A stretch of 38,919 bases of DNA from a virus. Position 1 is the first letter of the stretch; each line of letters begins with the position of its first letter. The translations under genes were made by a program, and so were the position numbers. The stretch spans positions 1 through 38,919 of IMG/VR virus record IMGVR_UViG_3300027899_000031; one strand, 5' to 3'. The notes under the pieces were generated by a model. The model did not search any database. It was not told the origin of the DNA and saw only the letters and a program-made list of their open reading frames with translations. This document shows, piece by piece, positions 975-38,919 of this stretch.

Positions 975-1715
975 TTAAAAATGTTCTAGCCATGATTCTG
1001 ATGTAATACTACCATCAGCAGGATCACCAATAGCAGTATAATTACTAAGTGGTTGTTGAGTAATAATATCATTAATATTTGCATTAACAGTAGTAATGAT
1101 ACCACTTGTAGAAGTATTACCAAAAAGATTTAATTTTAATGTAAAAGTTAATGTATGTGTTACAAATCTTCTAGTAGTAAAATCTCCATCATAATCATCT
1201 TGAACAGAAATACTATTTAAAATAATAGGAATATCTTGAACCACATTCATTTCAGGAACAGCATTAATTGATAATGTATATTCAGGAGTAAAGGTGGGTA
1301 AAATTTGTTCTATTATTTGTAATGCATCTTCTTGAGTTTTTGTCAAAATATATAAAGAAATATCAAGATTATATGGTACTGGTGAATTCAGAGTATTTAA
1401 AGAACTTATACCATCTCCACATTTTATTTGTTGCATTCTATTTGTTTTTCTTACTGAATCATAAGAATACCCAGTAATTTCAAAGGATATTCTAGGCAAT
1501 GATGTATAAGTATGATTTTCAAGAGTAGGATCAGAATCTATTCTTACTATCCATTTTTCCTTTGGTGCATAACCTATAGGTACTTTTAAAGTTTGAACTG
1601 TTGTTCCATTAACAGAACCACCTTCTTTTCTTTCTATTTTTATATTAGAAAAAAGACTACCAAATCCTACAATAGTTTTTCTTATAATTCCGTGATAAAA
1701 TGGAGTTTCGTACAT
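975..1715 (-). CDS. 15: Tail completion and sheath stabiliser protein, gp15-like
   Basis: In T4, gp15 forms the hexameric ring that caps the contracted or extended tail and joins it to the neck. This 246-residue protein is near the T4 size (272). It has recognisable family landmarks: an N-terminal FYHGIIRKT...FGSLFSNIKIER, then VPIGYAPKEKW (T4 VPITYASKEH), SLPRISFEI.GYSYDS..KTN, and IIEQILPTFTPEY (T4 IVEQILPYFQPH), followed by D..DG...TRR. The start overlaps the gp14 stop by one base (TAATG), which gives tight translational coupling. It sits in the conserved order 13-14-15-17. The C-terminal 40 residues (after LNLFG) are not recognisable and are probably phage-specific. Confidence 0.93.
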   Translation of the reverse strand: MYETPFYHGIIRKTIVGFGSLFSNIKIERKEGGSVNGTTVQTLKVPIGYAPKEKWIVRIDSDPTLENHTYTSLPRISFEITGYSYDSVRKTNRMQQIKCGDGISSLNTLNSPVPYNLDISLYILTKTQEDALQIIEQILPTFTPEYTLSINAVPEMNVVQDIPIILNSISVQDDYDGDFTTRRFVTHTLTFTLKLNLFGNTSTSGIITTVNANINDIITQQPLSNYTAIGDPADGSITSESWLEHF

Positions 1716-2620
1716 TAAATATCTCCGAACGGATTATTAGTATCAAATACAATAGTAGAGGCTTCATCTAAAAATGAATTATTATCTCCATATGAATCTA
1801 CTTTATCAATATCTACTGAAATAGTGGCTTCAATAAGTGCACCTACTCCATTTCCAATTATTTCAACATATGGTATAGATTTGTATCCTGTACCAGGATT
1901 GGTGATAATAATATCAACAATTTTTCCTGCGTTACTACCAGTGCCTATAACTGCTTCTGCTGTAGCACCATATCCAGAAGAATTTGTAAATTCTACCGTA
2001 GCAGTTGAATATCCAGATCCAACATTTGTAATATTAATTGCAGATACCCGTCCATAAATACTATCCGTAACATCAGTTGAAAATGTCTTTAGTGATTCAA
2101 ATACATCAATATCATCATGTCCAGTATCAATTCTTTCAGAAGCATATTGAAACAATTCTACTTGAAGTTTATAGACATATAGTTTGCCTAATTGGTAGAA
2201 AGGATCTTGATGTTGGACAAATTTGATTTCAAATAAGCCTTTTGATAAAGGAAAGTAAATCAAATCTCCTTCATTTGGTCTAGTAGGTACGGTTGTTACC
2301 CCATATCTACCTACAAATTGTTCCCATCTTCTACGAGCAACAACAAGAGTTGCTGATTGTTCTACCATTAATCCAAACTTTTGAATCATGAATCCTTGAC
2401 CAGCAAATGAATCAATGTTTTCAAAATACATTTCAATAGGAAATGCAGTTTTGAATTGGGATAATCTATCTTCTCCTAAAATATTATCTTTTGCGACTAA
2501 TGTTCTAGGGATATACATCACTTCATTTCCATACATACGAAGTGATTCAATGATCAGATCTTCTACAAGATACTGTTCATTTTTTATACCGTGTGTAAAA
2601 TATACATTAGTAGTTGTCAT
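1715..2620 (-). CDS. 14: Neck protein gp14-like, with inserted GxGY beta-repeats
   Basis: Neck (head completion) protein of the T4 family. Landmarks are VYFTHGIKNEQ.LVEDLIIES near the N-terminus, EVMYIPR (T4 ECYYVPRE), ILGEDRLSQFKTAF, FGLMVEQSATL, EGDLIYFPLSKGLFEIKFV and DPFYQLGK (T4 DPFYQVGK). At 301 residues it is longer than T4 gp14 (256). The extra length is largely residues 193-270, two repeats with GSGYSTATVEF and GTGYKSIPYVEI cores followed by glycine/alanine-rich turns. These are inserted between the core and the conserved acidic tail FDTNNPFGDI. The gene follows gp13 after three bases and overlaps gp15 by one. The inserted repeats are of the type seen in gp8 and the DUF4815 protein of this window. 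Confidence 0.94.
   Translation of the reverse strand: MTTTNVYFTHGIKNEQYLVEDLIIESLRMYGNEVMYIPRTLVAKDNILGEDRLSQFKTAFPIEMYFENIDSFAGQGFMIQKFGLMVEQSATLVVARRRWEQFVGRYGVTTVPTRPNEGDLIYFPLSKGLFEIKFVQHQDPFYQLGKLYVYKLQVELFQYASERIDTGHDDIDVFESLKTFSTDVTDSIYGRVSAINITNVGSGYSTATVEFTNSSGYGATAEAVIGTGSNAGKIVDIIITNPGTGYKSIPYVEIIGNGVGALIEATISVDIDKVDSYGDNNSFLDEASTIVFDTNNPFGDI
1811..2044 (-). repeat. Two GxGY beta-repeats inserted in gp14
   Basis: These encode gp14 residues 193-270. Each unit reads roughly I.I.N.GsGY....V.I...G.GA.AeA.I, and the second begins at IIITNPGTGYKS. The T4 gp14 sequence, as recalled, has no counterpart at this point. A surface-exposed decorative beta domain on the neck is inferred. Confidence 0.75.
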
Positions 2621-2623
2621 GAT

Positions 2624-3601
2624 TTATCCCATGAACCAACTTAGTGGAGCAGATTTTGTCATTAAGTCATCTTCTAAATCTTTAATTTCATCAATGGCTT
2701 CTCTATATAAAGAATCGCCATCTAATGTGACACCACCTGGTAATTGTATACCAGAAAACTTTTTGATATTTGTTGCCCACATCTTTTTAAATAATGCAGT
2801 AGTATAATGTTTCAACCATAATTCTCCCCATATTCTAGGAGCATTGGCAGGATCTATTGCTCCATATCCATCAACCATAAAGTATTGACCAATATGAGTA
2901 TCTACTTGCCATTTAATATCAAGATATAATTTATTTGTGAATCTATTAAATCGGATATCAGGTTTTGCATTAAGTTCAAAATCCAGCATTGATAAATGAC
3001 TCATAACTGTTTTATAATAAATCATTGATGTTGAGGTTACATCATACAAATCATGCAAACGTAATTGATATTGCAAGTCAAACATATTCTTAGATGAAGA
3101 TGCTTGAGCCATAGGAACAACTCTAGTTACACCATACATCAAATCGGGTAATGTAATATACCTATTATCATATACACCTTTAACAACTGGAGTTGTTGAA
3201 CTTAAAGTAGCAGAAACTGTATCATTTGAAATAGTTTCACCAGCAAGAAAATCTCCGGTTATATTAACAACAAGAAGGACATTTCCTGTAGATGTTCTTG
3301 ATTCTAATCTAGTACCTTCATCTATTGTTACAAAAGCAACTGCTCCAGATGTTAATCCAGATACTTTTGAACCATCTTCAAAAGACTCAGCATTATTAGT
3401 TGTAAGATTTAATACAGAAGCAGTAATCATATATTTGGCATATACTTGTTCAATACCTTCTGGATGATATAATCTCCAATATTCAAGTGCCTCATCAATA
3501 CGATCTTCCAATTGATCATCATCAACATTTATCTCAAGCACAGGTGCTCCTAGTGCTCTCAATGCATATTGTTTGAGTCCTTCTCTGCTTGTTATTGCCA
3601 T
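2624..3601 (-). CDS. 13: Neck protein gp13-like
   Basis: Head-completion neck protein of the T4 family, 325 residues (T4 gp13 has 309). Family landmarks: SREGLKQYALRALGAPVLEI near the N-terminus (T4 LKDVILRRLGAPIINV), DQLEDRIDEALEYWRLYHPEG, a central region ending in the DPANAPRIWGELWLKHYTTALFKK stretch, and the conserved C-terminus LPGGVTLDG from about residue 287, followed by a charged helix. Residues about 66-142 (SGLTSGAVAF...GDFLAGETIS) form a beta-rich insertion that resembles a segment of the DUF4815 protein. The gene begins 30 bases downstream of a perfect late promoter box and leads the 13-14-15-17 transcription unit. Confidence 0.93.
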   Translation of the reverse strand: MAITSREGLKQYALRALGAPVLEINVDDDQLEDRIDEALEYWRLYHPEGIEQVYAKYMITASVLNLTTNNAESFEDGSKVSGLTSGAVAFVTIDEGTRLESRTSTGNVLLVVNITGDFLAGETISNDTVSATLSSTTPVVKGVYDNRYITLPDLMYGVTRVVPMAQASSSKNMFDLQYQLRLHDLYDVTSTSMIYYKTVMSHLSMLDFELNAKPDIRFNRFTNKLYLDIKWQVDTHIGQYFMVDGYGAIDPANAPRIWGELWLKHYTTALFKKMWATNIKKFSGIQLPGGVTLDGDSLYREAIDEIKDLEDDLMTKSAPLSWFMG

Positions 3602-3631: not shown

Positions 3632-3639
3632 TATTTATA
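3632..3639 (-). promoter_or_regulatory. T4-type late promoter ahead of gp13
   Basis: The minus strand reads TATAAATA, the exact T4 late consensus recognised by the gp55 sigma factor. It lies 30 bases before the gp13 ATG and abuts the stop codon of the 2OG oxygenase gene. It separates the enzyme cassette from the neck/terminase genes. Activity is inferred from motif and spacing. Confidence 0.85.
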
Positions 3640-4212
3640 TTATTTCCATTTTGGACCATCAAACCAACATGCAAGACTATATCTAGTGCCTTTTGTTACT
3701 GCAGTTGCTCTATGTTCTAAGAATGACGGAAAAAATGTTACAGTTCCTTGAGTTCGAATATCATTAAAATTAGGATATTCTTCTAAATTAAATAATTCAA
3801 AATCACCGCCATCATATTCTAATGGATCAGTCAATTGTATTATAGCAGTTAATTTTCTATGATATATAGGATCATTATTCATCCAAAATACATCATGATG
3901 TCTTTTATATTCACCTTGATATGATGCATCATATTCCGCTAATTGAATATATGACAATTTAGAAAGATGAAAATTAAACCATAAATCATTACATTCTAAT
4001 GCAGTATTCATCAATTTATCAAATAACCAAGTAAATGCAGGATTATCTTTTTGTATGAATCTAATTTTACTTTTTCTAATATCAGAATTATTAGAACTAC
4101 CATCAACTCCCAATTTAGCATTTTCTGCCGGAATTTTTAGTCCTTCTTGTAATATAAAATCACATTGTTCTTTACTAAAATAGTTTTTATAGTAACACCA
4201 TTCACCCTTCAT
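3640..4212 (-). CDS. 2OG-Fe(II) oxygenase (PKHD/prolyl-hydroxylase-like)
   Basis: A 2-oxoglutarate and Fe(II)-dependent dioxygenase of 190 residues, a single double-stranded beta-helix domain. The iron ligands are visible as H105-H-D107 (EYKRHHDVFW) and the distal H167 (FPSFLEHRAT). R177 in TRYSLACWFDGP is the expected 2-oxoglutarate anchor. GGDFELF and GTVTFFPS are typical core strands. Such oxygenases are widespread in T4-like aquatic phages, but their substrates are mostly unknown; hydroxylation of a protein side chain or small molecule is possible. The start overlaps the DUF2061 gene by 11 bases, so it is the last gene of a four-gene overlapping cassette. No cofactor-independent variant is suggested, because all ligands are present. 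Confidence 0.9.
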   Translation of the reverse strand: MKGEWCYYKNYFSKEQCDFILQEGLKIPAENAKLGVDGSSNNSDIRKSKIRFIQKDNPAFTWLFDKLMNTALECNDLWFNFHLSKLSYIQLAEYDASYQGEYKRHHDVFWMNNDPIYHRKLTAIIQLTDPLEYDGGDFELFNLEEYPNFNDIRTQGTVTFFPSFLEHRATAVTKGTRYSLACWFDGPKWK

Positions 4213-4408
4213 TAATTCCCCATTTTATATTTAACCATACTCTTTCATGTATATAGTAGTCCACACTTAATAGAATATGCAGTAATGTTGCAAATCCAGT
4301 ACTCTTTCCTATATCACCAATAAAAATATAAGTCCATAATATTGTGAATACCCAGGCAGTTATTCTATAAGTCAGCATTCTTACTATAGTTCTTCTATGA
4401 GTCTCCAT
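4202..4408 (-). CDS. Small membrane protein, DUF2061 family
   Basis: A 68-residue protein matching the DUF2061 pattern. It has a basic N-terminus (ETHRRTIVRMLTYRI), a first hydrophobic helix (about 15-31, AWVFTILWTYIFIG), a second (about 38-50) and the family-typical end YYIHERVWLNIKWG. Two membrane-embedded helices are predicted. Function is unknown in the family. It overlaps the halogenase gene by 14 bases and the 2OG oxygenase gene by 11, so it is made together with two redox enzymes. A role as membrane anchor or transporter for the cassette is inference only. It is too small to be an obvious holin, and no lysis partner is adjacent. Confidence 0.83.
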   Translation of the reverse strand: METHRRTIVRMLTYRITAWVFTILWTYIFIGDIGKSTGFATLLHILLSVDYYIHERVWLNIKWGINEG

Positions 4409-6002
4409 AGATAGTTTCCTTCAAGAATTCATAATGTGTAGGTAATTGATTTACTATTTCAACTGTTTTTGCTCTATGTTTTAACCAAGTATCCCAAGTA
4501 TCATATACGTCATTTAATCTACCAAATTCTCCTAATATAAACTTAACTCTACTTTCATCAACTACATTTTGTCCCATTCCTGCAAAAATATAAGATATAC
4601 CTCCAACATCATTGCTCATAACTCTAGACCTATGTTTTCTATATGAAATTTCATTATAAGCATTCAATACACTAGCCTTAAATTCTGTTAGATTTGTAGA
4701 GTATGTAGTTTCTTCAGAAACATGGTTCCAATATGGAGTATCATTTCTCATTGATAAAGCATAATGTTGACTTATAAATTCTTTAAATCCAAATATCTGT
4801 TCTCTAAATGCATAATTGAAACAATCAATATCAAATTTAGTTACTCTACCATTTCTAGTTTTTAAAAGGTTTACGACTTTTATAATACACTCGTGAGTCA
4901 ACATTAATCCAGTAGATTCTAATGGTTCAATAAAACCATTTGAAAGTCCTATACCTATAACATTCTTTTCCCAGGTGCGCTCGTGTACACCATGTTTAAT
5001 TTTGATATGGCGAACTTCCATCTCATCAACTCTTACATCATCCTGACATATCATTCTATTAGATTTTAAATGGTTTCTAAATTGTTCTTCTGCTTCTTCT
5101 TCGGTTGCAAATTTACTCGAATAGACATATCCAGTACCAATTCTGTCCCAGAGAGGAATATTCCATACCCAACCAGATTCTATAGCAGTACAACTAGTGA
5201 CACACTCCATTTCTTTATCTTTATCGACATATGGAATTATACCTGCAACTGCTCTGTCATTATGTAAAGTATCATGAAAAGAGATAAATGGTACTTTTAA
5301 TTTATCTTCAAGTAAAAATGATTTAAATCCTGTACAATCAATAAACAAATCAGCAGTTAATATACCATTATTTTCAGATATAATATGTTCAATATTGCCT
5401 TGAGAATCAAGCGTGGCATCTATTACATTATCAAAAATATGGGTCATTCCTGTAGGAAGACATACATAATCTCTAAGATAGTTGCCAAATAATGTTGCAT
5501 CCATATGATATGCTGTATCACTATTAAAATTAAATCCACGTATTAAATGATTTTCATTCTTAGTCATTTTATTTGCATCAGTCATAATAACTGAACTATG
5601 AAAAAACTCTGCAAATGTATATGGGTCTAATTCTGGATTTAAAGCCTTAATACTAAACCACGACATTAAACCACCTGACTTATCTGTAAAGTCATACATA
5701 CCAAAAGGATAATGGAATACATGTGGTTCTTTACTTGGGGTTTCTCTAAAATCTAAAAACTTAATTGAAGTTTTATAAGTAGCATTGCAATGTTTCATCC
5801 AATCTTCATCTTTAAGTCCAAGATACAGTAAGAATTCATTTATTTGACCTATAGTAGATTCTCCTACTCCTATTGTAGGAATATTAGGAGATTCAATTAA
5901 TGTCAAGTTGACAGATGGCAGTTGTTTTGATATAGCAGCAGCCGTCATCCAACCAGAACTACCGCCGCCCACTATCACTATATTCTCAATTTTATTTTTC
6001 AA
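4395..6002 (-). CDS. Flavin-dependent tryptophan halogenase-like enzyme
   Basis: 535 residues, full length for the family (PrnA/RebH about 530). The FAD-binding Rossmann motif is IVIVGGGSSGWMTAA (residues 8-22). GESTIGQINEFL follows at 48-57. K77 in YKTSIKF corresponds to the catalytic lysine that carries the haloamine. The diagnostic WxWxIP motif is W278-V-W-N-I-P283. FIEPLESTG (357-365) matches the substrate/chloride-site segment of PrnA. All signature residues are intact, so an active halogenase is likely. The substrate cannot be deduced. Close relatives occur in cyanophages, including the characterised broad-substrate halogenase VirX1 of phage Syn10 (recalled, not checked). The gene overlaps both neighbours, by 4 bases upstream (ATGA) and 14 downstream. 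No flavin reductase is seen, so host FADH2 would be needed. Confidence 0.93.
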   Translation of the reverse strand: MKNKIENIVIVGGGSSGWMTAAAISKQLPSVNLTLIESPNIPTIGVGESTIGQINEFLLYLGLKDEDWMKHCNATYKTSIKFLDFRETPSKEPHVFHYPFGMYDFTDKSGGLMSWFSIKALNPELDPYTFAEFFHSSVIMTDANKMTKNENHLIRGFNFNSDTAYHMDATLFGNYLRDYVCLPTGMTHIFDNVIDATLDSQGNIEHIISENNGILTADLFIDCTGFKSFLLEDKLKVPFISFHDTLHNDRAVAGIIPYVDKDKEMECVTSCTAIESGWVWNIPLWDRIGTGYVYSSKFATEEEAEEQFRNHLKSNRMICQDDVRVDEMEVRHIKIKHGVHERTWEKNVIGIGLSNGFIEPLESTGLMLTHECIIKVVNLLKTRNGRVTKFDIDCFNYAFREQIFGFKEFISQHYALSMRNDTPYWNHVSEETTYSTNLTEFKASVLNAYNEISYRKHRSRVMSNDVGGISYIFAGMGQNVVDESRVKFILGEFGRLNDVYDTWDTWLKHRAKTVEIVNQLPTHYEFLKETIYGDS

Positions 6003-7228
6003 AATGTTTTCCTAAATTGCAAAGCAGAATCTATATCTTGTATACCAAATGTTCTTTCGCATTCATGACAATCCCAACATTGATTTTTACATGTACTTAA
6101 TATCTTTTCTAATCTTTTACCTTTATCGGTAGACCATATTCCATTGTAACCTTTATATGATGATTTATAATCATTTTTAGTGAATCTAGTATCAATCCAT
6201 CCTGGGATCCAATCATGTACAGGTATTAGATTATTTTCTATAATATCATTATAATCATCAGCATACACAGTATCAATAACAAACGTACTTTGTTGGTCTA
6301 TTTTTTGTGTTTTAAGGAACCAAACTGCTTTTACATTTTTGATATCTTTTGCAAGAAAAGGCGCATGTGTTAATCTACCAGAAAACTTAAATATATCTAC
6401 TAAGTCTAAGAATTGATTAATTGTGTCAGCATCAGAAGCAACTAAGTCAATACCAACTCTAGGTAAAGATTTAAATTCTTCAGAACCTCTCCACCCATTA
6501 CAAGATAGATTGGCAGGAGCACCAAAATATTCTGTACTAATAACTTCTCCAACAGAATCATGTTCTTTTTTGAACGGGCAACTGTATACACAAGATTCCG
6601 CAATCAGTAATGAAGTTAATAATTTCTTTTTTGGGTTTTTAGCATTTAGATAATCTTGTGCTTTTTTAATTTTTCTTAGTTCTTTAATATTTCTATTAAG
6701 ACTTCTATCTAATAAAATTGTATTATAACCAAGATAGGCATAATCTATAAATTGTTGTGCATCGGATACAATCTGATTAACGGTACTTTTCCAACGCATT
6801 TCGGGACATCTAATTTGTAACTCGCCTGTTCTAAGTATATGCTCAGAACTCATTGTACACGAACGAAGCCCTCTATCATAATATGAACCAATCCATTCAA
6901 CAAATTGTGTTCTAATTTCATGATTAAAAATTACTTCATGCGGCACTTCTACGGTATTGAATGTAAGTGATATTTCAACACCTAATTCTTCCTGTATTCT
7001 GAATAGATAATCAATATGAGTGTCTGTAGCCTCAACACCCATAGGGTTACCGCATCTTTTATCTATTCCATTATACGTATAATAAAAATATTTACCAAAA
7101 TAAATGTCATGAATATTATTTAGAAATTTAGGTGATGCATTTTTAAACATTGTATAATACGCATCACCATATTCTTCTGTTAATCTATCCCAGTGCGCAG
7201 TTGAAAATCTCTTTGTGTATTTTTGCAT
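5999..7228 (-). CDS. Peptidase U32 / UbiU-UbiV-like Fe-S protein
   Basis: A 409-residue protein resembling the COG0826 (U32) TIM-barrel family. Landmarks are a repeated barrel-strand pattern, YLGYNTILLDRSLNRNIKEL at about 165-184, then LLIAESCVYSCPFK (C213, C217; U32 relatives have NEGCLYxCPFR), C243, and a VGIDLV...VDIFKFSGR segment at 258-285 (typical IDxL...KIxGR). A cysteine-rich end has C380, C384, C387 and C390 (CxxxCxxCxxC). Modern members act as Fe-S-dependent, O2-independent hydroxylases (UbiU/UbiV, RlhA, TrhP) rather than proteases. Here the substrate is unknown. The C-terminal cluster suggests a second Fe-S site or a radical-SAM-like maturation partner. The stop overlaps the halogenase start by four bases. 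The assignment is by motif pattern only. Confidence 0.55.
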   Translation of the reverse strand: MQKYTKRFSTAHWDRLTEEYGDAYYTMFKNASPKFLNNIHDIYFGKYFYYTYNGIDKRCGNPMGVEATDTHIDYLFRIQEELGVEISLTFNTVEVPHEVIFNHEIRTQFVEWIGSYYDRGLRSCTMSSEHILRTGELQIRCPEMRWKSTVNQIVSDAQQFIDYAYLGYNTILLDRSLNRNIKELRKIKKAQDYLNAKNPKKKLLTSLLIAESCVYSCPFKKEHDSVGEVISTEYFGAPANLSCNGWRGSEEFKSLPRVGIDLVASDADTINQFLDLVDIFKFSGRLTHAPFLAKDIKNVKAVWFLKTQKIDQQSTFVIDTVYADDYNDIIENNLIPVHDWIPGWIDTRFTKNDYKSSYKGYNGIWSTDKGKRLEKILSTCKNQCWDCHECERTFGIQDIDSALQFRKTF

Positions 7229-7258: not shown

Positions 7259-7663
7259 CTATATATTCTGATTTTCTACAAGGGCAATATTCCAAGCCAA
7301 TACTACTGCAGGATCATCCTTAGGAATATTAGCTTTAACTTCAGTAATATGAGTAGCCCACGGACCATCAGCTGATATTGAGCCTGTCGCTTGTAGTTCT
7401 TTATATAACATGTCAAGTTGATTGCCTATTTCAGTATAAGCAATTCCTCTTGCGACCTTATATGCATTTTCAGCAAAACCGGGAGATGTTAATATGTCAA
7501 ATGCTTTGAATTCTCCTGTATCTGGATTGTAAGTGTGTGAACTAATTACATCATCAGGACAATCTATCCATGTAAATGACGGTGATACTTCAAATTCTTG
7601 TCCTACTTCCACAACTTCACAAACTCTGCCTATTTCCGCCTCGTGTAATAACGCTCTTTTCAT
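7259..7663 (-). CDS. Small fibre-associated protein, possible tail fibre assembly chaperone
   Basis: 134 residues from the preferred start. The N-terminal part (MKRALLHEAEIGRVCEVVE.GQEFEV...WIDCPDD) and the C-terminal part (YTEIGNQLDMLYKEL...GPWATHITEVKANIPKDDP) match small proteins often encoded directly after phage tail fibre genes. The QLDxLY...W..HI..VK..IPK pattern is typical of them. A longer reading from an ATG at 7684 is possible. The ATG at 7661-7663 is preferred because it follows the fibre stop by one base and has a GGGAG sequence about ten bases upstream, whereas the upstream ATG has none. A role in folding or attaching the adhesins is inferred from position. Confidence 0.65.
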   Translation of the reverse strand: MKRALLHEAEIGRVCEVVEVGQEFEVSPSFTWIDCPDDVISSHTYNPDTGEFKAFDILTSPGFAENAYKVARGIAYTEIGNQLDMLYKELQATGSISADGPWATHITEVKANIPKDDPAVVLAWNIALVENQNI

Positions 7664-7664
7664 T

Positions 7665-8951
7665 TTATTTGTACTCCCATACAACTACTAAACCTGCCTT
7701 TCCTGAATTACCAGGGAAATTTTGATCTGTTGATCCGCCACATCCACCACTTCCTGGTGCAGCCGCTCTTTCCCCACCTGGATTTTGATGTCTTCCTGTT
7801 AAATTGCTACCCCCACCCCAATAACTTGGGCCACCCTTGCCTATAGCACCATTACCCAAACTATTTCCGTGGCCTGTTCCCATGCCACCGTATAGATTTA
7901 TATCGCCGCCTGATCCAATTCCTCCGTGGCCGCCTGTGTGAGTATAATTAAGATTAGATCCATATCCCCCGGACGCCGAACAATATGACCCAAATGAACT
8001 AGCACCACCAGAGATTCCTGAAGAATATGTAGTAACTGCTCCACCGCCGCCAACTGTGACGGCAACTGTAGAAACTTGTGTGACATCTATTCTCATTTCA
8101 GAAAACCCACCGCCACCGCCTGATTCACAATATGATGTACCTCCTCCACCGCCGCCAACCACCTTTACAACAACATTTGTGCAGCCAGAAGGTTTAGTCC
8201 AAGTTCCAGTAGCGGCAAATGTTGAAATTGAAAGCAACTTACCAGTATCAGTAGTTGATGTAAATGGTGCCACTTGAACAGAGCCATCACTATAAGTAAC
8301 GCCTAACGCAGCATAATTTGACGCAATCTCCGCCTGAGTTAGTGTTCTATTGTAGATCGATACATTTGCAATAGCGCCTTTGAATAACCTATCAGTATTA
8401 AACCCACCACCAATAGTAACTGTAGGCATTTGTGTTGCCCAATAAGTATTAGAAATTGATGCTTTTTGTACACCATTTACATAACTTATCGCAGTATTGG
8501 TCGCTGTATTCCATGTCACTGTTAAGTAATACCAAGAATTAGGATTAAAGCCAGCATCTAATATATATAACCCACTTGCTGTTCCAGCATCATTGCCTAC
8601 AACAATACCAATCGAACCTGCGGTAGTTTGTTCAAATCGAATGCCAAAATTATTAGCAGTGCCATTGTAGTGTGTATGGAATGGGTTTCTGTAGTTCTCT
8701 ACTGCGGTAGAATTCAATAAAAAAGATATTGTTCCGTTAGTTGGAAACACACCAAAGTTTCCCAATGAAACATAATTAGTTCCATTAAAAACAAATGAAT
8801 TGTTAGAAAATGTTGGCGATCCAACTAATGTGCCATTTCTACCATTTCCACTTAAATCCGACCATGTAGTTCCAGATCCAGGATACGTAGAAGCATCCAA
8901 ATAACACATTAAGTTGGTTGTATTCCAAGTTCCGCCTAGTGTGATTGCCAT
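7665..8951 (-). CDS. Adhesin-like tail protein: LamG head plus glycine-rich domain
   Basis: 428 residues. The N-terminal half (about 10-215) is a LamG/concanavalin-like jelly roll: YLDASTYPGSGTTWSDLSGNGRNGTL, an FNGTNYVSLG strand, YLTVTWN..TN..ISYVNG, GGGFNTDRLFKGAIANVSIYNRTLTQAEI. A short GVTYSDGSVQ linker leads to a glycine-rich domain starting at GTWTKPSGC, with CESGGGGGFSEM, VAVTVGGGG and long GG-rich turns. Such glycine-rich domains are found in phage receptor-binding proteins and may pack as polyglycine helices. It is one of three tandem paralogues (with 8963-9634 and 9644-10900). AAGGA lies ahead of the ATG. Base composition is richer in GC than neighbouring genes, largely from glycine codons. 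Confidence 0.8.
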   Translation of the reverse strand: MAITLGGTWNTTNLMCYLDASTYPGSGTTWSDLSGNGRNGTLVGSPTFSNNSFVFNGTNYVSLGNFGVFPTNGTISFLLNSTAVENYRNPFHTHYNGTANNFGIRFEQTTAGSIGIVVGNDAGTASGLYILDAGFNPNSWYYLTVTWNTATNTAISYVNGVQKASISNTYWATQMPTVTIGGGFNTDRLFKGAIANVSIYNRTLTQAEIASNYAALGVTYSDGSVQVAPFTSTTDTGKLLSISTFAATGTWTKPSGCTNVVVKVVGGGGGGTSYCESGGGGGFSEMRIDVTQVSTVAVTVGGGGAVTTYSSGISGGASSFGSYCSASGGYGSNLNYTHTGGHGGIGSGGDINLYGGMGTGHGNSLGNGAIGKGGPSYWGGGSNLTGRHQNPGGERAAAPGSGGCGGSTDQNFPGNSGKAGLVVVWEYK

Positions 8952-8962
8952 ATTAAAATTCC

Positions 8963-9634
8963 TTACTTATATGCATAAACAATAACCAACCCTGATTCTC
9001 CATTGGAAATACCTGCTGCACCTGCGCCATCATTTGTTCTACCTCCTGGACCACCTGTACCTGGAGAACCACTATATAATTTAGTGCTAGTAGTACTTCT
9101 ATTGACAGTGCCACTAGACCCAAAAAAAGAACCTCCGCCTTGTCCTCCTGGAAAATGATTTCCGCCATTAGTATGTCCAGTTCCAACGCCACCATAAAGA
9201 TTTATACCACCACTAGAACCTACGCCAGCATTACCACCGCAGTGACTTCCTCCTGTATTTGCACCACCGCCGCCAGTAGCAGAACAATAGGCTCCAAATG
9301 AACTGGTGCCTCCAGAGGCACCTGCTGCATAATAGGCAACTGAAGCCCCACCGCCGCCAACTGTGACGGCAACACTAGCAACTGCGGTTACATCAATAAC
9401 CTTTTCTGTGTAACCTCCTCCGCCTCCAGACTCGCAATATCCTGCCGCGCCGCCGCCGCCGCCAACCATTTTAACTAAGACGGAAGTACAGCCAGAAGGT
9501 TTAGTCCATGTACCAGTAGCAGTAAATGAAGTGATGTTAATGATTCCCCCAGTTTCAACTGAAGAATCATACTTCGTTGCTTGGCTAGAAGAATTATTAA
9601 AAGTGACCCCAGATGAATCTAATGTAATTGCCAT
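8963..9634 (-). CDS. Short glycine-rich adhesin-like protein (no LamG head)
   Basis: 223 residues. It begins like its neighbours (MAITLDSSG) but goes straight to the linker (GVTFNNSSSQATKYD) and the glycine-rich domain: TATGTWTKPSGCTSVLVKMV, GYCESGGGGGYTEKVIDVT, VAVTVGGGGA, SFGAYCSATGGGGAN, ending GLVIVYAYK. It looks like a paralogue of the flanking genes that has lost, or never had, the LamG half. The conserved cysteines of the three paralogues (PSGC, YCES, YCSA) are kept. Stop and start of adjacent genes are nine bases apart, and AGGA precedes the ATG. A tail-tip adhesin or its alternative tip is inferred. Confidence 0.78.
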   Translation of the reverse strand: MAITLDSSGVTFNNSSSQATKYDSSVETGGIINITSFTATGTWTKPSGCTSVLVKMVGGGGGAAGYCESGGGGGYTEKVIDVTAVASVAVTVGGGGASVAYYAAGASGGTSSFGAYCSATGGGGANTGGSHCGGNAGVGSSGGINLYGGVGTGHTNGGNHFPGGQGGGSFFGSSGTVNRSTTSTKLYSGSPGTGGPGGRTNDGAGAAGISNGESGLVIVYAYK

Positions 9635-9643
9635 ATTTAGTTC

Positions 9644-10900
9644 CTATGAATATGAATAAACAACAACTAAACCACCTCCGCCGGCGCCGCCTACCCAAGC
9701 CTGCATAGCCCCACCTGTTCCTCCGCACCCAGGAGAAGTGTATCCCACGGCAGAATTTTGAGAGTGTGATGCTCTTCTTGGTCCTCCCCAATAACTTGAA
9801 CCACCAGTTCCAACTGCTTCTCTACCTCCTGTATTGCCATGGCCAGTTCCACAACCACCTAGAAAATTGACATCACCACTAGAACCTACTCCGCCATGAC
9901 CACCTGTATGACCAGCGTGTTGATTTGCCCCATACCCACCTGTTGCAGAGCAGTAAGAACCAAATGAACTGGTGCCTCCTTGAGTTGCAGCCGCATAATA
10001 TGTTACAGCAGCTGCACCTCCGCCAACTGTGACGGCAACAGTAGATACTGAAGTTACATCAATTACCTTTTCACTATATCCACCTCCGCCTCCAGACTCG
10101 CAATATGATGCTCCGCCGCCGCCTGCGCCAGTTACCTTTACAATTACTTTTCTACATCCAGAAGGTTTAGTCCATGTACCAGAAGCGGTAAAGGTCTGAG
10201 TTGCAAGTAATTTTCCGGTATCGGTGGTAGCATCATAAGCAGAACCTTGAACTGAGCCATCAGAAAGGGTTATGCCTTGTGTAAGATATGCTAAGTTTTG
10301 TTGAATCTCCGCCACTGACAAGACCCTGTTGTATGCCATAACATACCCGCATTGACTACCTGATTGTTCTGACAATACTCCAGATTGAGACCATGCTCCA
10401 ATTGTAATTCCATTAGGACCAGCGGTTCCTCCTGTCCCAGAAGCAATTTGAGTTCCATTTTCATACAACTTATAATCGTTCGTAGTGCCTGTCGCAGCCC
10501 AATGTCTATAAACAGTATCAAATGATCCAATTGATGGTGTTACCCACCCCATAGAAAAATACATTTTTACAGCATTGCTCCAATGACCCATAAGCCAGTT
10601 GTTACTCATGCCCGTAACAATTCTTCCTCCGGTTGAGCCGGTATAACCTGACCCTGCTAAAACCGTAAAAGCACTAGCAGATAAATTTACACCTGGAATA
10701 GTAATACATTGGGTCGAACCATTAAAATTAAATTTACCATTACTAACTGTCGGGCTTGCTACTAATGTGCCATGATTTCCAGTACCACTTAAATCCGTCC
10801 ATACTGTTCCAGACCCTGGATACGATGATGTTTTATTAGCATCTAAATAACAAATCAATCCACTAGCAACATAACTATCAGTTCCTATAGTAATCGCCAT
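9644..10900 (-). CDS. Adhesin-like tail protein: LamG head plus glycine-rich domain (paralogue)
   Basis: 418 residues with the same two-part plan as the gene at 7665-8951. The LamG-like head occupies about 1-210 (ICYLDANKTSSYPGSGTVW, DLSGTGNHGTL, FNFNGSTQCITIPG, NDYKLYENGTQIASG, YVMAYNRVLSVAEIQQN). The linker is GITLSDGSVQGSAYD, and the glycine-rich tail begins at TASGTWTKPSGC and contains CESGGGGGYSEKVIDVT and VAVTVGGG. The last residues GGGLVVVYSYS match the paralogue ends. The start is supported by an AAGAGGT sequence overlapping the end of the upstream fibre gene; the two genes are one base apart. Sequence between the two LamG heads differs strongly, so binding targets probably differ. 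Confidence 0.8.
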   Translation of the reverse strand: MAITIGTDSYVASGLICYLDANKTSSYPGSGTVWTDLSGTGNHGTLVASPTVSNGKFNFNGSTQCITIPGVNLSASAFTVLAGSGYTGSTGGRIVTGMSNNWLMGHWSNAVKMYFSMGWVTPSIGSFDTVYRHWAATGTTNDYKLYENGTQIASGTGGTAGPNGITIGAWSQSGVLSEQSGSQCGYVMAYNRVLSVAEIQQNLAYLTQGITLSDGSVQGSAYDATTDTGKLLATQTFTASGTWTKPSGCRKVIVKVTGAGGGGASYCESGGGGGYSEKVIDVTSVSTVAVTVGGGAAAVTYYAAATQGGTSSFGSYCSATGGYGANQHAGHTGGHGGVGSSGDVNFLGGCGTGHGNTGGREAVGTGGSSYWGGPRRASHSQNSAVGYTSPGCGGTGGAMQAWVGGAGGGGLVVVYSYS

Positions 10901-10901
10901 A

Positions 10902-12215
10902 TTAATTACCTCTTAATTCTTTAACTTCTGCTCGTAATTCTTTAATTGCCTCAATAAGCAATGGCACTAACTTTTCATATTGCACTGTTAGGTAGTTCTC
11001 ACCAGATTTACTATTACCATCGCCATCCATATCGAATGGTGCGAGTTTAACTGCTTCAGGTAATACCTTTTGCACTTCTTGTGCAAAAACACCAACTTGT
11101 TGATCCTTGTCGGTATAACCAAATGATTCTGCTAATTCGTTCTGTGTGAATAACATACCAGTTAAAGTATCAACTTTATCTAGTGCATTGGTAATCGGTT
11201 TAATATTCTCTTTGAGTCTCTTGTCAGAATACATGGCAGTAATAGAACCTGTTGCCAGTATCTGTCCGGCAGCACCAACTGCTGTTGTACCAATACTGAG
11301 ACACCCTGCGGAGGTTAATCTTGCTTTTTCTGTTGGGGCTAAATTTAATGCTGTCGATGTAGCAAAGATTAATTGCCCTGTGGGGTATTGCCCATTGGTT
11401 CTTGCACCATATTGACAAGCAATCCAAGCAGCTGAATATTGATTTGTTGATGCTCCAGTAATTGTAGCAAAGTTTAATTGTGAAAGATTATTAGTAGTTG
11501 TGTTGGAATTTGAAATGGTAATAGCATTTGTACTTGATCCTGCGGTTATAGCTGTACTAGAACTTTGAACTACTAAGGGTCTTGCAGCATTTACACTGTC
11601 AAGTACAGAATTAACACTCGTCCCAATCCCCACGTTGCCTCCTGATGGATTGAGTGCTAAATCTAAACCACCTGCTGAATCATTGAGATATGTTTGTATT
11701 ACTTGAACACCACTTGTTGTGGAACTAAATCCTGTTGCATACCCAATATCGGCACCTCTCATGTATAGATATGAGTTTGCTACAGTTATGGCTGTATTTC
11801 CAATAATATTTTTGGCAATATATAACTTTTGACCACTACCGCTAGTAGCACCAAGTAATAAGTTGCCTGATGATATAGTAATTGCTGTAGACCAACTTGC
11901 AGTAGAACCGTCTGTCGTCAATAAACGACCACCATTACCTGTTTGAGTTGGTAAAGATACGGGTGCTGCTTGCCAACTTGGTGCCGCTCCAACTCCATTA
12001 CTTGTAAGTAAATATCCAGCAGTAGAGGTTGCTAACATTGCTGTAGTATTAACAGCAGATTGATACGGTATAGTACCTAATGAACCGCCGCCTAAATTAG
12101 TAGAAACTGAAGGTGATGTAACTTGCCATTGAGTTTTTGCTAAGTTGTAAGTATATTGGTTCCCACCTAATGTTACAACCTGACCGTTTGTAGGTGATGA
12201 AGGAAAATCTATCAT
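10902..12215 (-). CDS. Tail fibre with C-terminal S74 intramolecular chaperone
   Basis: 437 residues. The N-terminus (MIDFPSSPTNGQVVTLGG..YTYN...TQWQV) is a common phage fibre opening. It is followed by low-complexity Ser/Thr/Gly-rich beta sequence. From about residue 328 the Peptidase_S74/endosialidase chaperone domain is clear: YSDKRLKENIKPI, VGVFAQEVQKVLPEAV, YLTVQYEKLVPLLIEAIKEL, then a short coiled coil. In characterised fibres this domain drives trimerisation and cuts itself off at the Ser of the SDxRLK motif (here S330). The ATG abuts the upstream stop (TAAATG) with TAGGAG ahead. GDGNSKSGEN is an insertion in the S74 domain, absent from the neighbouring fibre. Confidence 0.9.
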   Translation of the reverse strand: MIDFPSSPTNGQVVTLGGNQYTYNLAKTQWQVTSPSVSTNLGGGSLGTIPYQSAVNTTAMLATSTAGYLLTSNGVGAAPSWQAAPVSLPTQTGNGGRLLTTDGSTASWSTAITISSGNLLLGATSGSGQKLYIAKNIIGNTAITVANSYLYMRGADIGYATGFSSTTSGVQVIQTYLNDSAGGLDLALNPSGGNVGIGTSVNSVLDSVNAARPLVVQSSSTAITAGSSTNAITISNSNTTTNNLSQLNFATITGASTNQYSAAWIACQYGARTNGQYPTGQLIFATSTALNLAPTEKARLTSAGCLSIGTTAVGAAGQILATGSITAMYSDKRLKENIKPITNALDKVDTLTGMLFTQNELAESFGYTDKDQQVGVFAQEVQKVLPEAVKLAPFDMDGDGNSKSGENYLTVQYEKLVPLLIEAIKELRAEVKELRGN

Positions 12216-15200
12216 TTATTTTGCTCCTAGTTGAATTTTCAATTCATCAATTTGATTCTGTTGTTCTTTAAATCCCTGTATCAATAATGGAATAAGTTTA
12301 TCATAATATACTGTAAGATACTTATCATCTATAGGAGCAGGTACAACAATTTCAGGTAACACTTTCTGAACTGATTGTGCTGATACCCCAACTTCACGTT
12401 TAACTGTATATCCTAATTCTTGAGCAGTTTCATTTGCTTCATAATAAAAACCATCAAGAGACATAATCTTTTCTATTGCATTTTCAATTATACCGAGTTT
12501 AGTTTTTAATCTATCATCAGAATAGTATGCAGTAATGTTATTAGTTGCACGTATTTCACCTGCTACAGCAGATGCTGGTGTACCTATACCCAGCGAGTTT
12601 AATTGTACGTTAGATGCAGTTGTATATTGTGTACCTGTAGGACCAGTAGGTCCGGTAGGTCCGGTAGGACCTGCCACAGTAGATGCTGCACCTGTAGGTC
12701 CGGTAGGTCCGGTAGGTCCGGTAGGGCCTGCCACGGTAGATGCTGCACCAGTAGGACCAGTAGGTCCAGTAAGTCCGGTAGGTCCAGTTGGCCCTGTAGG
12801 ACCAGGAACGGTAGATGCTGCACCAGTAGGTCCGGTTGGACCGGTAGGACCTGCCACAGTAGATGCTGCACCGGTAGGACCAGTAGGTCCCGCAGGTCCG
12901 GTTGGACCAGTAGGTCCTATTGATCCAGGCAAAGAAGGCGAAGCATCTACCCATTGTGAAGATGTACCATCATTAAAATAGATATATGTTCTTGCTGCAA
13001 GAGAATCCCACCATAATTGACCTGCAACTGGAGATACTGGAGCAGTATCACTTACAGATATACCTCCTGAAGAAGGTGTTGACCAAGTACCATCTCCACG
13101 CCAAAAGGTTGAAGCAGATGCACTTGTACCACTATTAAGTCTTGCTACTGCTAAATTTCCTGATGTAATATTTGTAGCATTAGTTGTATCTGTTGTTGCT
13201 GATGCTGCTAATCCAGAAATTTTTGTAGAAGCAATAGCAGCTGAAGCAGAAATATCTCCATTAACAATTGTGCCATCCGCAATCATTGTACTAGTTACAG
13301 TACCTGTATCTCCTGTAGTCACTATAGTACCATTTACATCAGGAACTGTTAATGTTCTAGTAGTTGCTGTAGTTATACTTGATAATTGAAACTGTAATTT
13401 TTTAGTAGCATCAGTTTCATCAATGAAATATGTTGTGCTATCAGATAATGATTTATTTGTAAGAGTCTGCGCAGTGGTTGTATATACTCCATTAGTCACA
13501 GTTCCAGCATTACCGCCAATACTTAAATTAGCAACTGCAGTAGTTGATGTAACAACAAATGGGGCAGTTCCAGTAGCCACATTTGATATAAGTACAGGTG
13601 CAGTAAAATTAACGTAAGATGTAGTGCCTGTAGTCATCATTGTTTCTACAGTAGTAAGACCTACAGCAACTCCAGAACTTGTTGCATTACCTATTTGAAA
13701 AGATAAAGAACCTGTAGAACTATCAACAGTTGATACAATTCGAGCAGATGAACCTAAACCTGCACCCACAGCGGTATTATCAGGTGTTCCATTATAATGA
13801 TTGAAACATACATTAGCATTGCCATAACCATCATTAGTAGATAAAGCTACTCCTCCACTACCAACTCCTACATTAACTAAACTGAAATAACCTAAATTTG
13901 GTGTTGTTGCACCAACTGTTCCATTAATATTAATAGAAGCAGTACCAGTTAGATTTGTTACTGTTCCTGAAGATGGAGTACCTAATGCTCCACCTGTAGA
14001 ATATTTGCCATTAAATGTATTCCAATCAGTAGATGTTAAATATCCAGAAACAGAAGTAGTTGCGGCAGGAATACTTAAAGCAACTGCTGTTGAACCATTA
14101 TAACTTGTCCCTACTAAAGGTGCACTAATAGTTAAAGCATTAAGATTAGATCCTAAAGATACACCTGAAATAGTAGATGAGGCAAGTTTAGTTATTGCAA
14201 TCGAACCTGCAAGCATGGTATTTGTAACAGAACCTGTATCTCCTGTAGTTACAATTGTTCCTGTAATAGCAGGTATTGTAAGAATTGTTCCAGTACCTAC
14301 TGCAGCAGTTGGTACCAATTGAACTGTACCTGATGTAGAACCGGGTAATGTAACTGAACTAATTCCTGTTAGTGCAAGATTAGCACTTGCTCTATTTAAG
14401 GTGACTGCAGTTGTACCAATATAATGTGTAGAATTACCTAATACTGTACTTGAAATAGTACCAGTTAAATTTCCAGCAGTAGTATAGTATGATCCATGTT
14501 GCCCATCTAAATAATCTGAATTTAAATTAGATACAAGAGTAGTAGAAGTAACTGTTAATGGCGCAGTACCAGTAGCAATTGTAGAAGTTAATGAACCAAC
14601 TTGTAATGGAGCATATGTTACACCTGTAAAATCTAATGTAGATGAACTAGGTTCTCCAGTCATCCCACTAAATAATTTCCACACACTATCAGAAGCATCA
14701 CGTACTAATCCAGTATGTAAATGGGTACCATTATTATACGCCCCAACTATACCTAAATCAGTAATATCTGCAACATTATTATCACCAATATAAATTAATG
14801 GATCATTAACAACAAGTTGTGTCGCCGATAATTGTGTTGAACCACCACCAAAAGTAATATTACCATAAACATATAAATCATGTTGAATTGATGTTGTGCC
14901 AGTATGGGCAGTATTACCTATGGATATAGCAGTGGATGCTCCGCCAATATTAATAGTTGTAGCAGTTGTGTTTAATAAATCAAATGATGTACTTCCGGTA
15001 GTTAAACTAGTTGTAACTGCCGGTGAGGTAAGGGTTTTATTGGTAAGAGTTTGAATACCGGTAAGAGTTGCAACAGTTGAATCTATGGCAATAGTAACAC
15101 CAGTAGAACCATTATAACTTGTACCAGATAATCCAGTTCCAATAGTTAGAGTATTAAGATTAGAACCTAATGATATACCTGATATTGTGCTATTTGATAA

Positions 15201-15830
15201 TTTTGCATTTGCTATAGAACCGGCAAGCATGGTATTAGTAACAGTACCAGTATCACCAGTAGTTACAATTGTTCCAGTAGTAGCAGGTATTGTAAGAACT
15301 GTTCCAGTTCCAACTACTGCTGTAGGTACCAATTGAACTGTACCAGAAGTAGGACCAGGTAAAGTAACAGAACTAATTCCAGTTAATGCTAAATTTGCCG
15401 AAGTACGATTTAATGCTACTGATGTTGAACCAATATAATGAACATCTGCTCTTAATGCAACGGTAGAATCAATTGCAATAGTAACTGCAGAAGAACCATT
15501 ATAACTTGTTCCAGATAATCCGGTACCAATAGTTAAAGCATTTGGATTTGACGCAGTAATTGTTGCAGACCCACCTAAACTAATAGATGATCCATTTACA
15601 GTAATTGAACTATTTGTTAATTTAGTGTTGGCAATAGATCCTGCCAACATTGTATTTGTGACAGAACCTGTATCTCCAGTTGTTACTGCAGTTCCAGTTA
15701 TGGCAGGTAATGTAAGCGTATTTGTTCCTGCAGTAGCAGTTGCTAAAACAGTAATAGTACCAGATGTTGATCCAGTTAATTGAAGATTAGGTGTGATTGC
15801 CCCATTCTTTACTACAAACTCGTTTGCCAT
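12216..15830 (-). CDS. Long tail fibre with collagen-like stalk and S74 chaperone
   Basis: 1204 residues. The first 900 residues are Ser/Thr/Gly-rich fibre repeats ([55 protein letters not shown]). They include two copies of a module of about 118 residues shared with the gene at 15858-17408. Between about residues 968 and 1066 is a collagen-like GPTGPTG stalk broken by GAASTVAG interruptions. The S74 chaperone starts at about residue 1102 ([40 protein letters not shown]), with a terminal coiled coil. A trimeric, self-maturing adhesin stalk is inferred. The ATG has GGGAAATG-type weak pairing upstream, and a late-promoter box lies 53 bases before it. Confidence 0.9.
12632..12930 (-). repeat. 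Collagen-like GPTGPTG tandem repeat
   Basis: About 33 GxT/GPx triplets, encoded by a 9-bp unit (plus strand ggtccggta and variants), are interrupted four times by a GAASTV[AP] hinge. It is collagen-like in sequence and expected to form a trimeric stalk in the fibre. The repeat keeps several other frames open and so generates spurious ORFs on both strands. Confidence 0.92.
14073..14426 (-). repeat. Fibre module, copy 1 of 3
   Basis: Encodes [12 protein letters not shown]...[15 protein letters not shown]...[19 protein letters not shown]...[21 protein letters not shown]...SYNGSTA. It is clearly homologous at protein and DNA level to 15087-15440 and 16266-16619. The last 20 codons diverge from the other copies. 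Confidence 0.82.
15087..15440 (-). repeat. Fibre module, copy 2 of 3
   Basis: Residues 131-248 of the 1204-residue fibre, in the same order of motifs as the other two copies ([50 protein letters not shown]). It shares long near-identical DNA runs with 16266-16619, an adjacent gene. Confidence 0.82.
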
Positions 15831-37796: not shown

Positions 37797-38363
37797 ATGG
37801 CAAATTGTAAAGGCGAATGTAATAAACAACTTCAAGGTTTAGCGGCAAGATTATCTCATGCTGAAGATAATATTACAAATCATTTTATGGGAGTATCTAC
37901 CTTAGTAGAAGGACTTCTAGCCAATCCTCTTACTATGGGTAGTGCTGCTCCTTTATCAGCAATTTATAATAGTCTCCCTTCTGGAATGGAACTAGTACAA
38001 TTATTAAAAGATGCCTTGCCTGATATAGATGCTATCACTATGAAACAATTAATGTTATCAGCAAGTGAAGCAGCTATGGATACTCTTGCAGCAACTATGG
38101 ATGAAGTAGGTGCTGCTATGATTGCAACTGCTACTGCCGCTGTGTCAGCCGCTGAAGATGTTGTAACATCAACTGCAGATTCTTTAGCAGCAGCTATACA
38201 ATCTGGAAATCAAATAGCAATAGATGCTGCCCAAGCAGCCCATAATCTTGCTAACATAAACTTAAGCAGTGCCATTACTTCAAAACTTTCTATTTCAGGT
38301 TTTATGGAAGGCCAAGCGAAAATTTCTAAATGCAAAAGCAAAAGTTTTCTTTTAGGTGATTAA
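37797..38363 (+). CDS. Unknown protein, only plus-strand gene; possible hub-associated structural protein
   Basis: 188 residues, not recognised with certainty. It has a cysteine-bearing N-terminus (MANCKGECNKQL), a central SLVxGLLANPLTMGSAAPLSAIYNSLPSG-like segment (34-62) with LVQLLKDALPDIDAITMKQL, and then an alanine-rich amphipathic helical region (about 88-150). The C-terminus KISKCKSKSFLLGD again has a cysteine. No signal peptide is seen; the helix is not hydrophobic enough for a clear membrane span. GAGAA lies eight bases before the ATG, and a perfect late box lies 27 bases before it. Its stop directly abuts the stop of the convergent M15 gene. Position next to the putative hub gene suggests a virion component. 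Confidence 0.68.
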   Translation: MANCKGECNKQLQGLAARLSHAEDNITNHFMGVSTLVEGLLANPLTMGSAAPLSAIYNSLPSGMELVQLLKDALPDIDAITMKQLMLSASEAAMDTLAATMDEVGAAMIATATAAVSAAEDVVTSTADSLAAAIQSGNQIAIDAAQAAHNLANINLSSAITSKLSISGFMEGQAKISKCKSKSFLLGD

Positions 38364-38919
38364 TTACACATAAAAAGTAAGTAAACCGTTTGATCCAGAT
38401 GCTGGTTTACCTGATGCATTAACATTCTTATCATCAATATAAGTAGTACAAAGTTTCATACTTCCTTTCATTGAATAAGATAAATGGATCCAAACACTAT
38501 TACCCTTGTTTCTATATTCTAATATAACTTGATTATATGGAAGAATCTTTTCTAGTTTAACTGCAAGTTCATAATGTTCAGTTATATCTCGCGATGTTAA
38601 CTGAATATCGCAAGCCTCGCCTTTATTATGAAAGGATCCTCCAGTTTCATTTCTTAAACCAGAATTGATATTCCATATTCCATTAGAGTCTTGTTGCCTG
38701 CATGGTCCTATTTCTGCATAAACCTTTTCTAATATATTAACACATAGTGCCGAAAGATTAGCAACTAATTGTTGTTTAGAATATGTTCCATCCGGCAAGG
38801 TAGTACTTTTTAATACTTTACCTTGAGCACTTGTTAACATACCAAGAGTAAAGTTATCACTTAACTTATAACTAGTTGGGAAGTCTGTCATGTTATTAAT
38901 TTCGGCAAGTTTTTCGGCA
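38364..38919 (-). CDS. M15 peptidase domain, probably C-terminus of a gp5-like baseplate hub lysozyme (partial)
   Basis: A zinc DD-peptidase domain that would cut peptidoglycan cross-links. SFHNKGEACDIQL provides the HxxGxAxD zinc-binding motif, and WIHLSYS the downstream zinc His. YKLSDNFTLGMLTSAQGKVL is the usual domain start. An ATG at 38889-38891 gives a 175-residue protein, but it has no Shine-Dalgarno. The frame is open upstream to the window edge, coding AEKLAEINN before the Met. The domain is therefore probably the end of a longer protein. In T4 the neighbouring gene 5 encodes the hub with a built-in lysozyme, and aquatic T4-like phages often carry a different peptidoglycan hydrolase there. 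A stand-alone endolysin is the alternative. Confidence 0.78.
   Translation of the reverse strand, partial: AEKLAEINNMTDFPTSYKLSDNFTLGMLTSAQGKVLKSTTLPDGTYSKQQLVANLSALCVNILEKVYAEIGPCRQQDSNGIWNINSGLRNETGGSFHNKGEACDIQLTSRDITEHYELAVKLEKILPYNQVILEYRNKGNSVWIHLSYSMKGSMKLCTTYIDDKNVNASGKPASGSNGLLTFYV

Follow-up and report, generated by a model that had tools for sequence, protein, structure and literature searches.

VirX1, the flavin-dependent halogenase of cyanophage Syn10, is an active enzyme with an unusually open, accessible active site and takes many small aromatics in vitro (PMC8407142). Reviews treat it as a broad small-molecule iodinase for which no natural substrate is named, and those on viral halogenases name none either. 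The literature assigns phage halogenases metabolite roles or none (PMC10452541, PMC8407142, PMC2984593), and our literature search found no paper linking phage halogenases to fibres as substrates, nor one on halogenation of fibres by phages. That an enzyme of the halogenase fold can act on an aromatic residue within a protein has a precedent in QhpG, a flavoenzyme with a large pocket, which dihydroxylates a tryptophan in its protein substrate (PMC7876137). Here, we analysed the IMG/VR virus record IMGVR_UViG_3300027899_000031, a stretch of 38,919 bases from a T4-like myovirus (hereafter the window), in which a VirX1-clade halogenase is encoded behind three tandem genes for glycine-rich fibre tips. 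Our findings suggest that these genes probably form a tailoring cassette through which the phage adds halogen and hydroxyl groups to its own receptor-binding fibre tips. The features concerned are:

9644..10900, minus strand: FIB-1, glycine-rich fibre tip (Gly_rich_2, E 2e-6)
10070..10105, minus strand: fibre-tip motif YCESGGGGGYSE in FIB-1 (motif scan)
8963..9634, minus strand: FIB-2, glycine-rich fibre tip (Gly_rich_2, E 3e-8; phrog_863 tail fibre)
9404..9439, minus strand: fibre-tip motif YCESGGGGGYTE in FIB-2 (motif scan)
7665..8951, minus strand: FIB-3, LamG-like domain and glycine-rich fibre tip (Laminin_G_3, E 2e-19; Gly_rich_2, E 5e-11)
8097..8132, minus strand: fibre-tip motif YCESGGGGGFSE in FIB-3 (motif scan)
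7259..7684, minus strand: TFA, fibre-assembly-chaperone-like gene with a likely ATG start at 7663 (phrog_1787)
5999..7228, minus strand: U32-fold protein, 409 aa (AlphaFold model, PDB fold match)
4395..6002, minus strand: VirX1-clade flavin-dependent halogenase, 535 aa, TTG start (PF04820)
4202..4408, minus strand: DUF2061 small membrane protein, 68 aa (Pfam, E 3e-5)
3640..4212, minus strand: 2-oxoglutarate (2OG)-Fe(II) oxygenase, 190 aa (PF13640; phrog_61)

The last four genes had been singled out in the initial annotation as a redox cassette whose members act together. Their open reading frames on the minus strand do overlap, by 4, 14 and 11 bases, and the catalytic motifs are intact, with GGGSSG (from 12), K77, WVWNIP (278) and E359 in the halogenase and H105, D107, H167 and R177 in the oxygenase. 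The flanking genes (phrog_211; Gly_rich_2, phrog_863 and phrog_1787) also bear out the proposed position between the fibre genes and gp13. When the halogenase and the U32-like protein were searched over 2.9 million viral contigs, yielding 27 and 65 loci, respectively, joint action of the four genes found no support: the complete order occurred only in the window and in the near-identical contig L002, DUF2061 was clade-restricted, and the oxygenase varied in position and family. The order U32-halogenase-DUF2061 was retained in a few close relatives. What did recur, in dozens of divergent contigs as judged by family profiles, was the order fibre, three FIB genes, TFA, (U32), (2OG), halogenase, which held down to about 40% halogenase identity, with or without gp13 adjacent, and on contigs of up to 354 kb. 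Among the 117 distinct halogenase genes whose upstream context sufficed, 86 had FIB within seven genes and 96 had a 2OG oxygenase within that distance; a battery of 2OG oxygenases often lies downstream of the halogenase. Seen from the 67 distinct U32 genes, TFA directly preceded 43, and the halogenase followed 40, either directly or after one 2OG gene. All 18 phage records matched by TFA were also among the halogenase matches. The same layout surrounds VirX1 in cyanophage Syn10 and is found in syn9, S-CREM1, S-RIM44 and P-RSM6, where several 2OG oxygenases follow. The conserved unit is larger than and different from the four genes first proposed and consists of the tips, TFA, (U32), (2OG) and the halogenase. 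The suggestion made at the outset that a virion protein, perhaps a fibre, is modified is strongly supported by this context, as the halogenase mostly lies beside tandem fibre-tip genes.

Since all these loci had been found via the enzymes, we reversed the test and started from the fibre tip. A tblastn search of phages with the glycine-rich tip gave no match, probably as low-complexity filtering masks the query; therefore, we turned to a degenerate DNA motif and to profiles. A DNA pattern for [YF]xE[STC]GG[GA]GG[YF]xE, which matches the window three times and none of 100 shuffles, was scanned across the whole viral contig collection. The halogenase was encoded in 66 of the 67 IMG/VR contigs that carry this fibre-tip motif, and the 67th ends inside TFA, before the expected halogenase start, so that the halogenase was present wherever the motif occurred except where the contig is cut off. 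With a control pattern, built for glycine-rich domains in which xES is missing, the halogenase was found in 1 of 39 contigs (Fisher p ~2e-26 against the fibre-tip motif). A corresponding picture emerged from 23 complete cultured genomes, where a VirX1-clade halogenase was present in 11/11 genomes with FIB compared to 1/12 without it (p 1e-5); two of the eleven, S-B64 and S-H35, retain both FIB and halogenase though the two are unlinked.

A second fibre-tip family shows the same dependence. Its pattern, RxHxxHxx[FW]xGYL[IV]G, was used in a scan of its own that was blind to the halogenase, and 23 of 27 contigs encoded the latter. All four misses end before the halogenase could lie: in G147, G151 and G153 the last tip motif is less than 200 bases from the contig end, and in G148 the distance is 2.04 kb; in G146, with an identical tip motif, 2.18 kb separate the motif from the halogenase start. 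In this family, which matches phrog_15750 and tail fibre profiles, the halogenase is often convergent with the tip genes, and the two are thus not one operon. As an observation on these tips themselves, they occur as a triplet unrelated in sequence to FIB (GRxPHxIxxH and a GYLIG ending, phrog_15750; L121:15757-18659, L150:13827-16650, L113:2703-4489) that adjoins halogenase clusters without FIB, and some of their tryptophan, tyrosine and histidine residues are strongly conserved.

To where on the tip such enzymes might be directed is suggested by the predicted structure. The AlphaFold model of FIB-2 (predicted local distance difference test score, pLDDT, 85) has the fibre of cyanophage Pam3 as its best PDB match (7ypx, E 2e-8). 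In Pam3, the glycine loops lie parallel to the axis of the fibre; binding of the receptor has been proposed for their distal ends, which are less conserved than the rest (PMC9608196). In the FIB model, Y66 is at the middle of a loop between strands 51-57 and 75-81, Y101 at the middle of one between strands 87-91 and 111-113, and the next two loops contain H131 and H154. Across 29 FIB proteins, Y101, H131 and H154 never vary and Y66 is mostly retained; none of the four has a counterpart in the control glycine-rich consensus. FIB relatives also share E68, E77, F113 and N126. By analogy to Pam3, the conserved tyrosine and histidine residues mid-way in the glycine loops would sit at the receptor-binding end. 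Their rings could be open to electrophilic attack by a halogenase, making Y66, Y101, H131 and H154 candidate modification targets.

The halogenase itself matches Pfam Trp_halogenase (PF04820) with E 1.3e-104, and its best solved relative is VirX1 (6qgm), with E 2e-141 across residues 4-534. Together with the GxGxxG motif, the active-site lysine, WxWxIP and the catalytic glutamate, this full-length match places it in the VirX1 clade, with halogenating activity predicted. Enzymes acting on free tryptophan mostly align to it only over about residues 1-430, and the C-terminal region, which in tryptophan halogenases contributes to substrate binding, therefore differs. Among 34 divergent relatives, K77, the GxGxxG glycines, the tryptophan and proline of WxWxIP and the catalytic glutamate region are invariant or nearly so. 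Three further observations concern halogenase neighbourhoods. A family of about 230-260 aa (phrog_7084, weak DUF6065) recurs in halogenase/oxygenase clusters (L087:9574-10362, in Syn10; L121:7168-9324). A gene that by eye is Nudix-like recurs on the opposite strand, downstream of the halogenase, in a large set of relatives (27 clustered members; for example L034:6129-6578 and L039:13587-14009). In P-SSM2 (NC_006883.2:174587-176697, L415), the neighbour of a distant PrnA-type halogenase carries the annotation L-shaped tail fibre assembly, which hints that remote phage halogenases, too, may keep company with fibres.

The U32-like protein was less readily classified. None of 40 family members matched the U32 profile of Pfam at E<=1, NCBIfam gave no match and there was no match to a PDB sequence; compared to the E. 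coli U32 proteins, only a weak collinear match was obtained (hhalign E 0.12), with a K-x-x-G-R motif collinear with the U32 family. The AlphaFold model (pLDDT 90.5) has the U32 peptidase Mk0906 (5d88) as its best PDB match, with E 3e-8 and a template modelling score of 0.68 on the target, and it is the predicted fold that identifies the protein as a U32 TIM barrel. The earlier label 'U32/UbiU' is upheld at this level and not by sequence. Eight residues are invariant in the family, C213, C217, C243, C380, C384, C387, C390 and H223; the seven cysteines suggest that the protein may bind an Fe-S cluster; their spacing differs from that of the four-cysteine [4Fe-4S] site of UbiU. Within the U32 family, UbiU/UbiV and TrhP carry out oxygen-independent hydroxylation, and by analogy the window protein may likewise hydroxylate without oxygen. 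Relatives of this protein also occur in other settings. Two contigs of bacterial metagenome-assembled genomes (L183, L184) encode relatives about 50% identical, with no recognised halogenase near. A larger U32-like relative is present in 123 cyanophage records, among them that of Syn19 (L091:7776-9497, Syn19_046, T4-GC 354); in cyanophages which, like Syn19, are without this halogenase clade, it follows genes of the fibre region and precedes a 2OG-type gene. In L085:9965-17403, two U32-fold genes flank several proteins of about 300-370 aa, some of them glycine-rich, which may represent another substrate family.

The window oxygenase belongs to the 2OG-Fe(II) family (2OG-FeII_Oxy_3, PF13640, E 7e-14), with the HxD...H...R residues intact. 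Only L002 has it in the same position; in L026/L027 the halogenase is followed by a similar gene, and about half of the relatives with both U32 and halogenase have a different 2OG oxygenase between the two. It is a local, variable add-on to the cassette, of which the halogenase is the core and the U32-fold protein, in one large lineage, a core partner. DUF2061 is likewise an optional add-on restricted to one clade: outside the window it occurs only after the halogenase in L002, L003, L007, L008/L029 and L009/L030, and in L003, L007, L008 and L009 it accompanies only halogenases about 78% identical to that of the window. Small genes after the halogenase in L015 and L021 were considered as DUF2061 and rejected. 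Also rejected was the identity 'DNA endonuclease V' of a halogenase-adjacent gene in relatives. Genes so named (phrog_274), for instance L040:11215-11793 and L047:11221-11814, are found in many cyanophage records and match profiles of 2OG-Fe(II) oxygenases; the label seems to be a wrong annotation that has spread from one cyanophage genome to others.

Taken as a working model, the late module would make and then chemically finish the receptor-binding fibre tips. Three paralogous glycine-rich tip proteins would be produced and folded with the aid of the TFA-like chaperone, and the enzymes encoded directly behind them would modify the tips post-translationally. Using host-supplied reduced flavin (FADH2), O2 and halide, the VirX1-type halogenase would place chlorine, bromine or iodine on the conserved tyrosine and histidine residues at the glycine-loop ends, while 2OG-Fe(II) oxygenases and/or the U32-fold protein would hydroxylate side chains in the same loops; DUF2061 and the exact oxygenase would be optional extras. 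The outcome may be a stiffer tip or a receptor-contacting surface with changed chemistry. In its most specific form, a phage assembly line that remakes its own tips by adding halogen and hydroxyl groups to the invariant tyrosine and histidine residues at the contact surface, with enzymes that follow the tip even across unrelated tip families, the proposal is a serious but still tentative possibility.

Several explanations compete with tailoring of the tips. The enzymes might serve auxiliary metabolism, acting on host small molecules (tryptophan, indoles, pigments or signals) to yield a protective or antibiotic-like compound, the place beside the fibres being merely a late insertion site for cargo. 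Antibiotic protection has been suggested as speculation (PMC2984593), effects on host metabolites have been proposed (PMC10452541), VirX1 accepts its range of small aromatics in vitro (PMC8407142), and in S-B64/S-H35 and S-MbCM6 the gene lies away from the fibres. Yet an enzyme of metabolites need not accompany a given tip protein, and its presence should be independent of virion structural genes, which is not borne out by 66/67, 23/27 and 11/11; nor would it be expected to depend on the tip motif, as seen in the control (1/39). We consider auxiliary metabolism unlikely. Alternatively, the halogenase might be a non-catalytic fibre-assembly factor or virion component that uses the flavoprotein fold as a scaffold. 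The constant company of fibre and chaperone-like genes would fit this, but the near-invariance of the catalytic residues in divergent relatives and the activity of VirX1 (PMC8407142) make it very improbable. The initial version, one obligate pathway of the four window genes with DUF2061 as a membrane anchor, draws on the overlapping reading frames and on the U32-halogenase-DUF2061 order of the few close relatives; with most relatives lacking both DUF2061 and the window oxygenase, the neighbourhoods largely refute it and it is hardly tenable.

Hitchhiking in a host-range module deserves separate mention. Phage fibre modules are exchanged as blocks, and tips and enzymes might be swapped as a linked block whose enzymes act on the host surface or receptor and not on the fibre. 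In agreement, the partner class tracks the halogenase on a quick tree, with 10 changes compared to ~25 when shuffled (all three classes) and 2 changes between FIB and the second tip family. Linkage alone cannot, however, explain that the tip was never seen without the halogenase over large divergence, the halogenase accompanies two unrelated tip families and can be convergent with the tips, and Shandvirus retains tip and halogenase when these are unlinked. We therefore regard hitchhiking as quite unlikely and favour tailoring of the tips.

A number of points nevertheless weigh against tip tailoring. FIB was absent from 27 of 43 halogenase-clade contigs, a sample picked partly for FIB being unseen near the halogenase; eight such FIB-less loci were examined, of which four had the second tip family and three had glycine-rich proteins, and for some FIB-less loci no partner is obvious. 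Replication genes surround the halogenase in S-B64 and S-H35, away from the fibre (by about 87 kb in S-B64), and the FIB of S-B64 is without the YxES motif. Distant cyanophage and pelagiphage halogenases (S-MbCM6, HTVC008M) sit elsewhere. The contigs counted are related, so that the numbers do not represent independent events, and the control contigs are a different phage mix. The conserved tyrosine and histidine residues may instead serve the fold or metal binding, and the assignment of the tips as substrate is drawn wholly from genomic context.

The surroundings of the cassette are those of a structural region: genes like gp13, gp14 and gp15 span 975-3601, the fibre genes extend from 7665 upwards, and further structural genes lie beyond. 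The flanking features are:

10902-12215, minus strand: long fibre gene upstream of the tip genes
12216-15830, minus strand: long fibre gene upstream of the tip genes, collagen-like, with a Peptidase_S74 end
2624..3601, minus strand: gp13-like head-tail adaptor, the downstream border of the cassette (phrog_211, E 3e-35)
3632..3639, minus strand: TATAAATA, possible late promoter of T4 type, some 30 bases ahead of gp13

The initial annotation had the cassette closed off by a new late promoter. One copy of TATAAATA is indeed present at 3632-3639, but the word occurs 10 times in the window, not more often than in shuffled sequence (12.1). At the far end of the window, the terminal gene (38364-38891) resembles, by eye, an M15/VanY-type peptidoglycan peptidase, and its neighbour is a plus-strand gene (37797-38363).

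If correct, tip tailoring would be, to judge from the searched literature, the first case of a virus encoding the halogenation of one of its virion proteins, and it would provide a natural role for VirX1-type halogenases. Non-standard amino acid chemistry at the receptor-binding surface would then add a new layer to phage host recognition. The association offers virion fibre tips as a candidate answer for the substrate of viral halogenases and for the cyanophage 2OG oxygenase clusters, on whose role there is no agreement.

Among known systems, VirX1 (PDB 6QGM) is the closest, with a full-length match, the same catalytic motifs and the same neighbourhood of fibre tip, TFA and oxygenase; it is ~45% identical to the window halogenase, which differs in being preceded by a U32-fold gene. 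Tailoring halogenases of ribosomally synthesized and post-translationally modified peptides, such as MibH, are encoded beside their ribosomal peptide substrate. The window gene likewise adjoins its proposed substrate gene, but these peptides are small and secreted and come with a leader, a protease and export genes, whereas the halogenase neighbours here are large virion adhesins (fibre tips of 200-430 aa) with chaperone-like and oxygenase genes. QhpG and LodB are comparable as halogenase-fold flavoenzymes acting on an aromatic residue in a dedicated protein substrate (PMC7876137), with weak profile similarity; QhpG differs in that it hydroxylates rather than halogenates, builds an enzyme cofactor, has a radical SAM partner and involves no phage. 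Gp24/gp25 of Pam3 and gp38-type adhesins share with FIB the predicted tip fold (7ypx, E 2e-8), a fibre chaperone and the glycine loops; in the parts of the Pam3 report available to us, the loop ends are hypervariable and no tailoring enzymes are named, whereas the window tips have conserved tyrosine and histidine residues there (PMC9608196). The U32 family (UbiU/UbiV, TrhP, Mk0906) resembles the window protein in predicted fold (5d88) and in the K-x-x-G-R motif, from which the window protein departs by its unrecognised sequence, another cysteine pattern and an extra C-terminal CxxxCxxCxxC. The enzymes come from known families; the proposed tailoring of receptor-binding fibre tips would be a new use.

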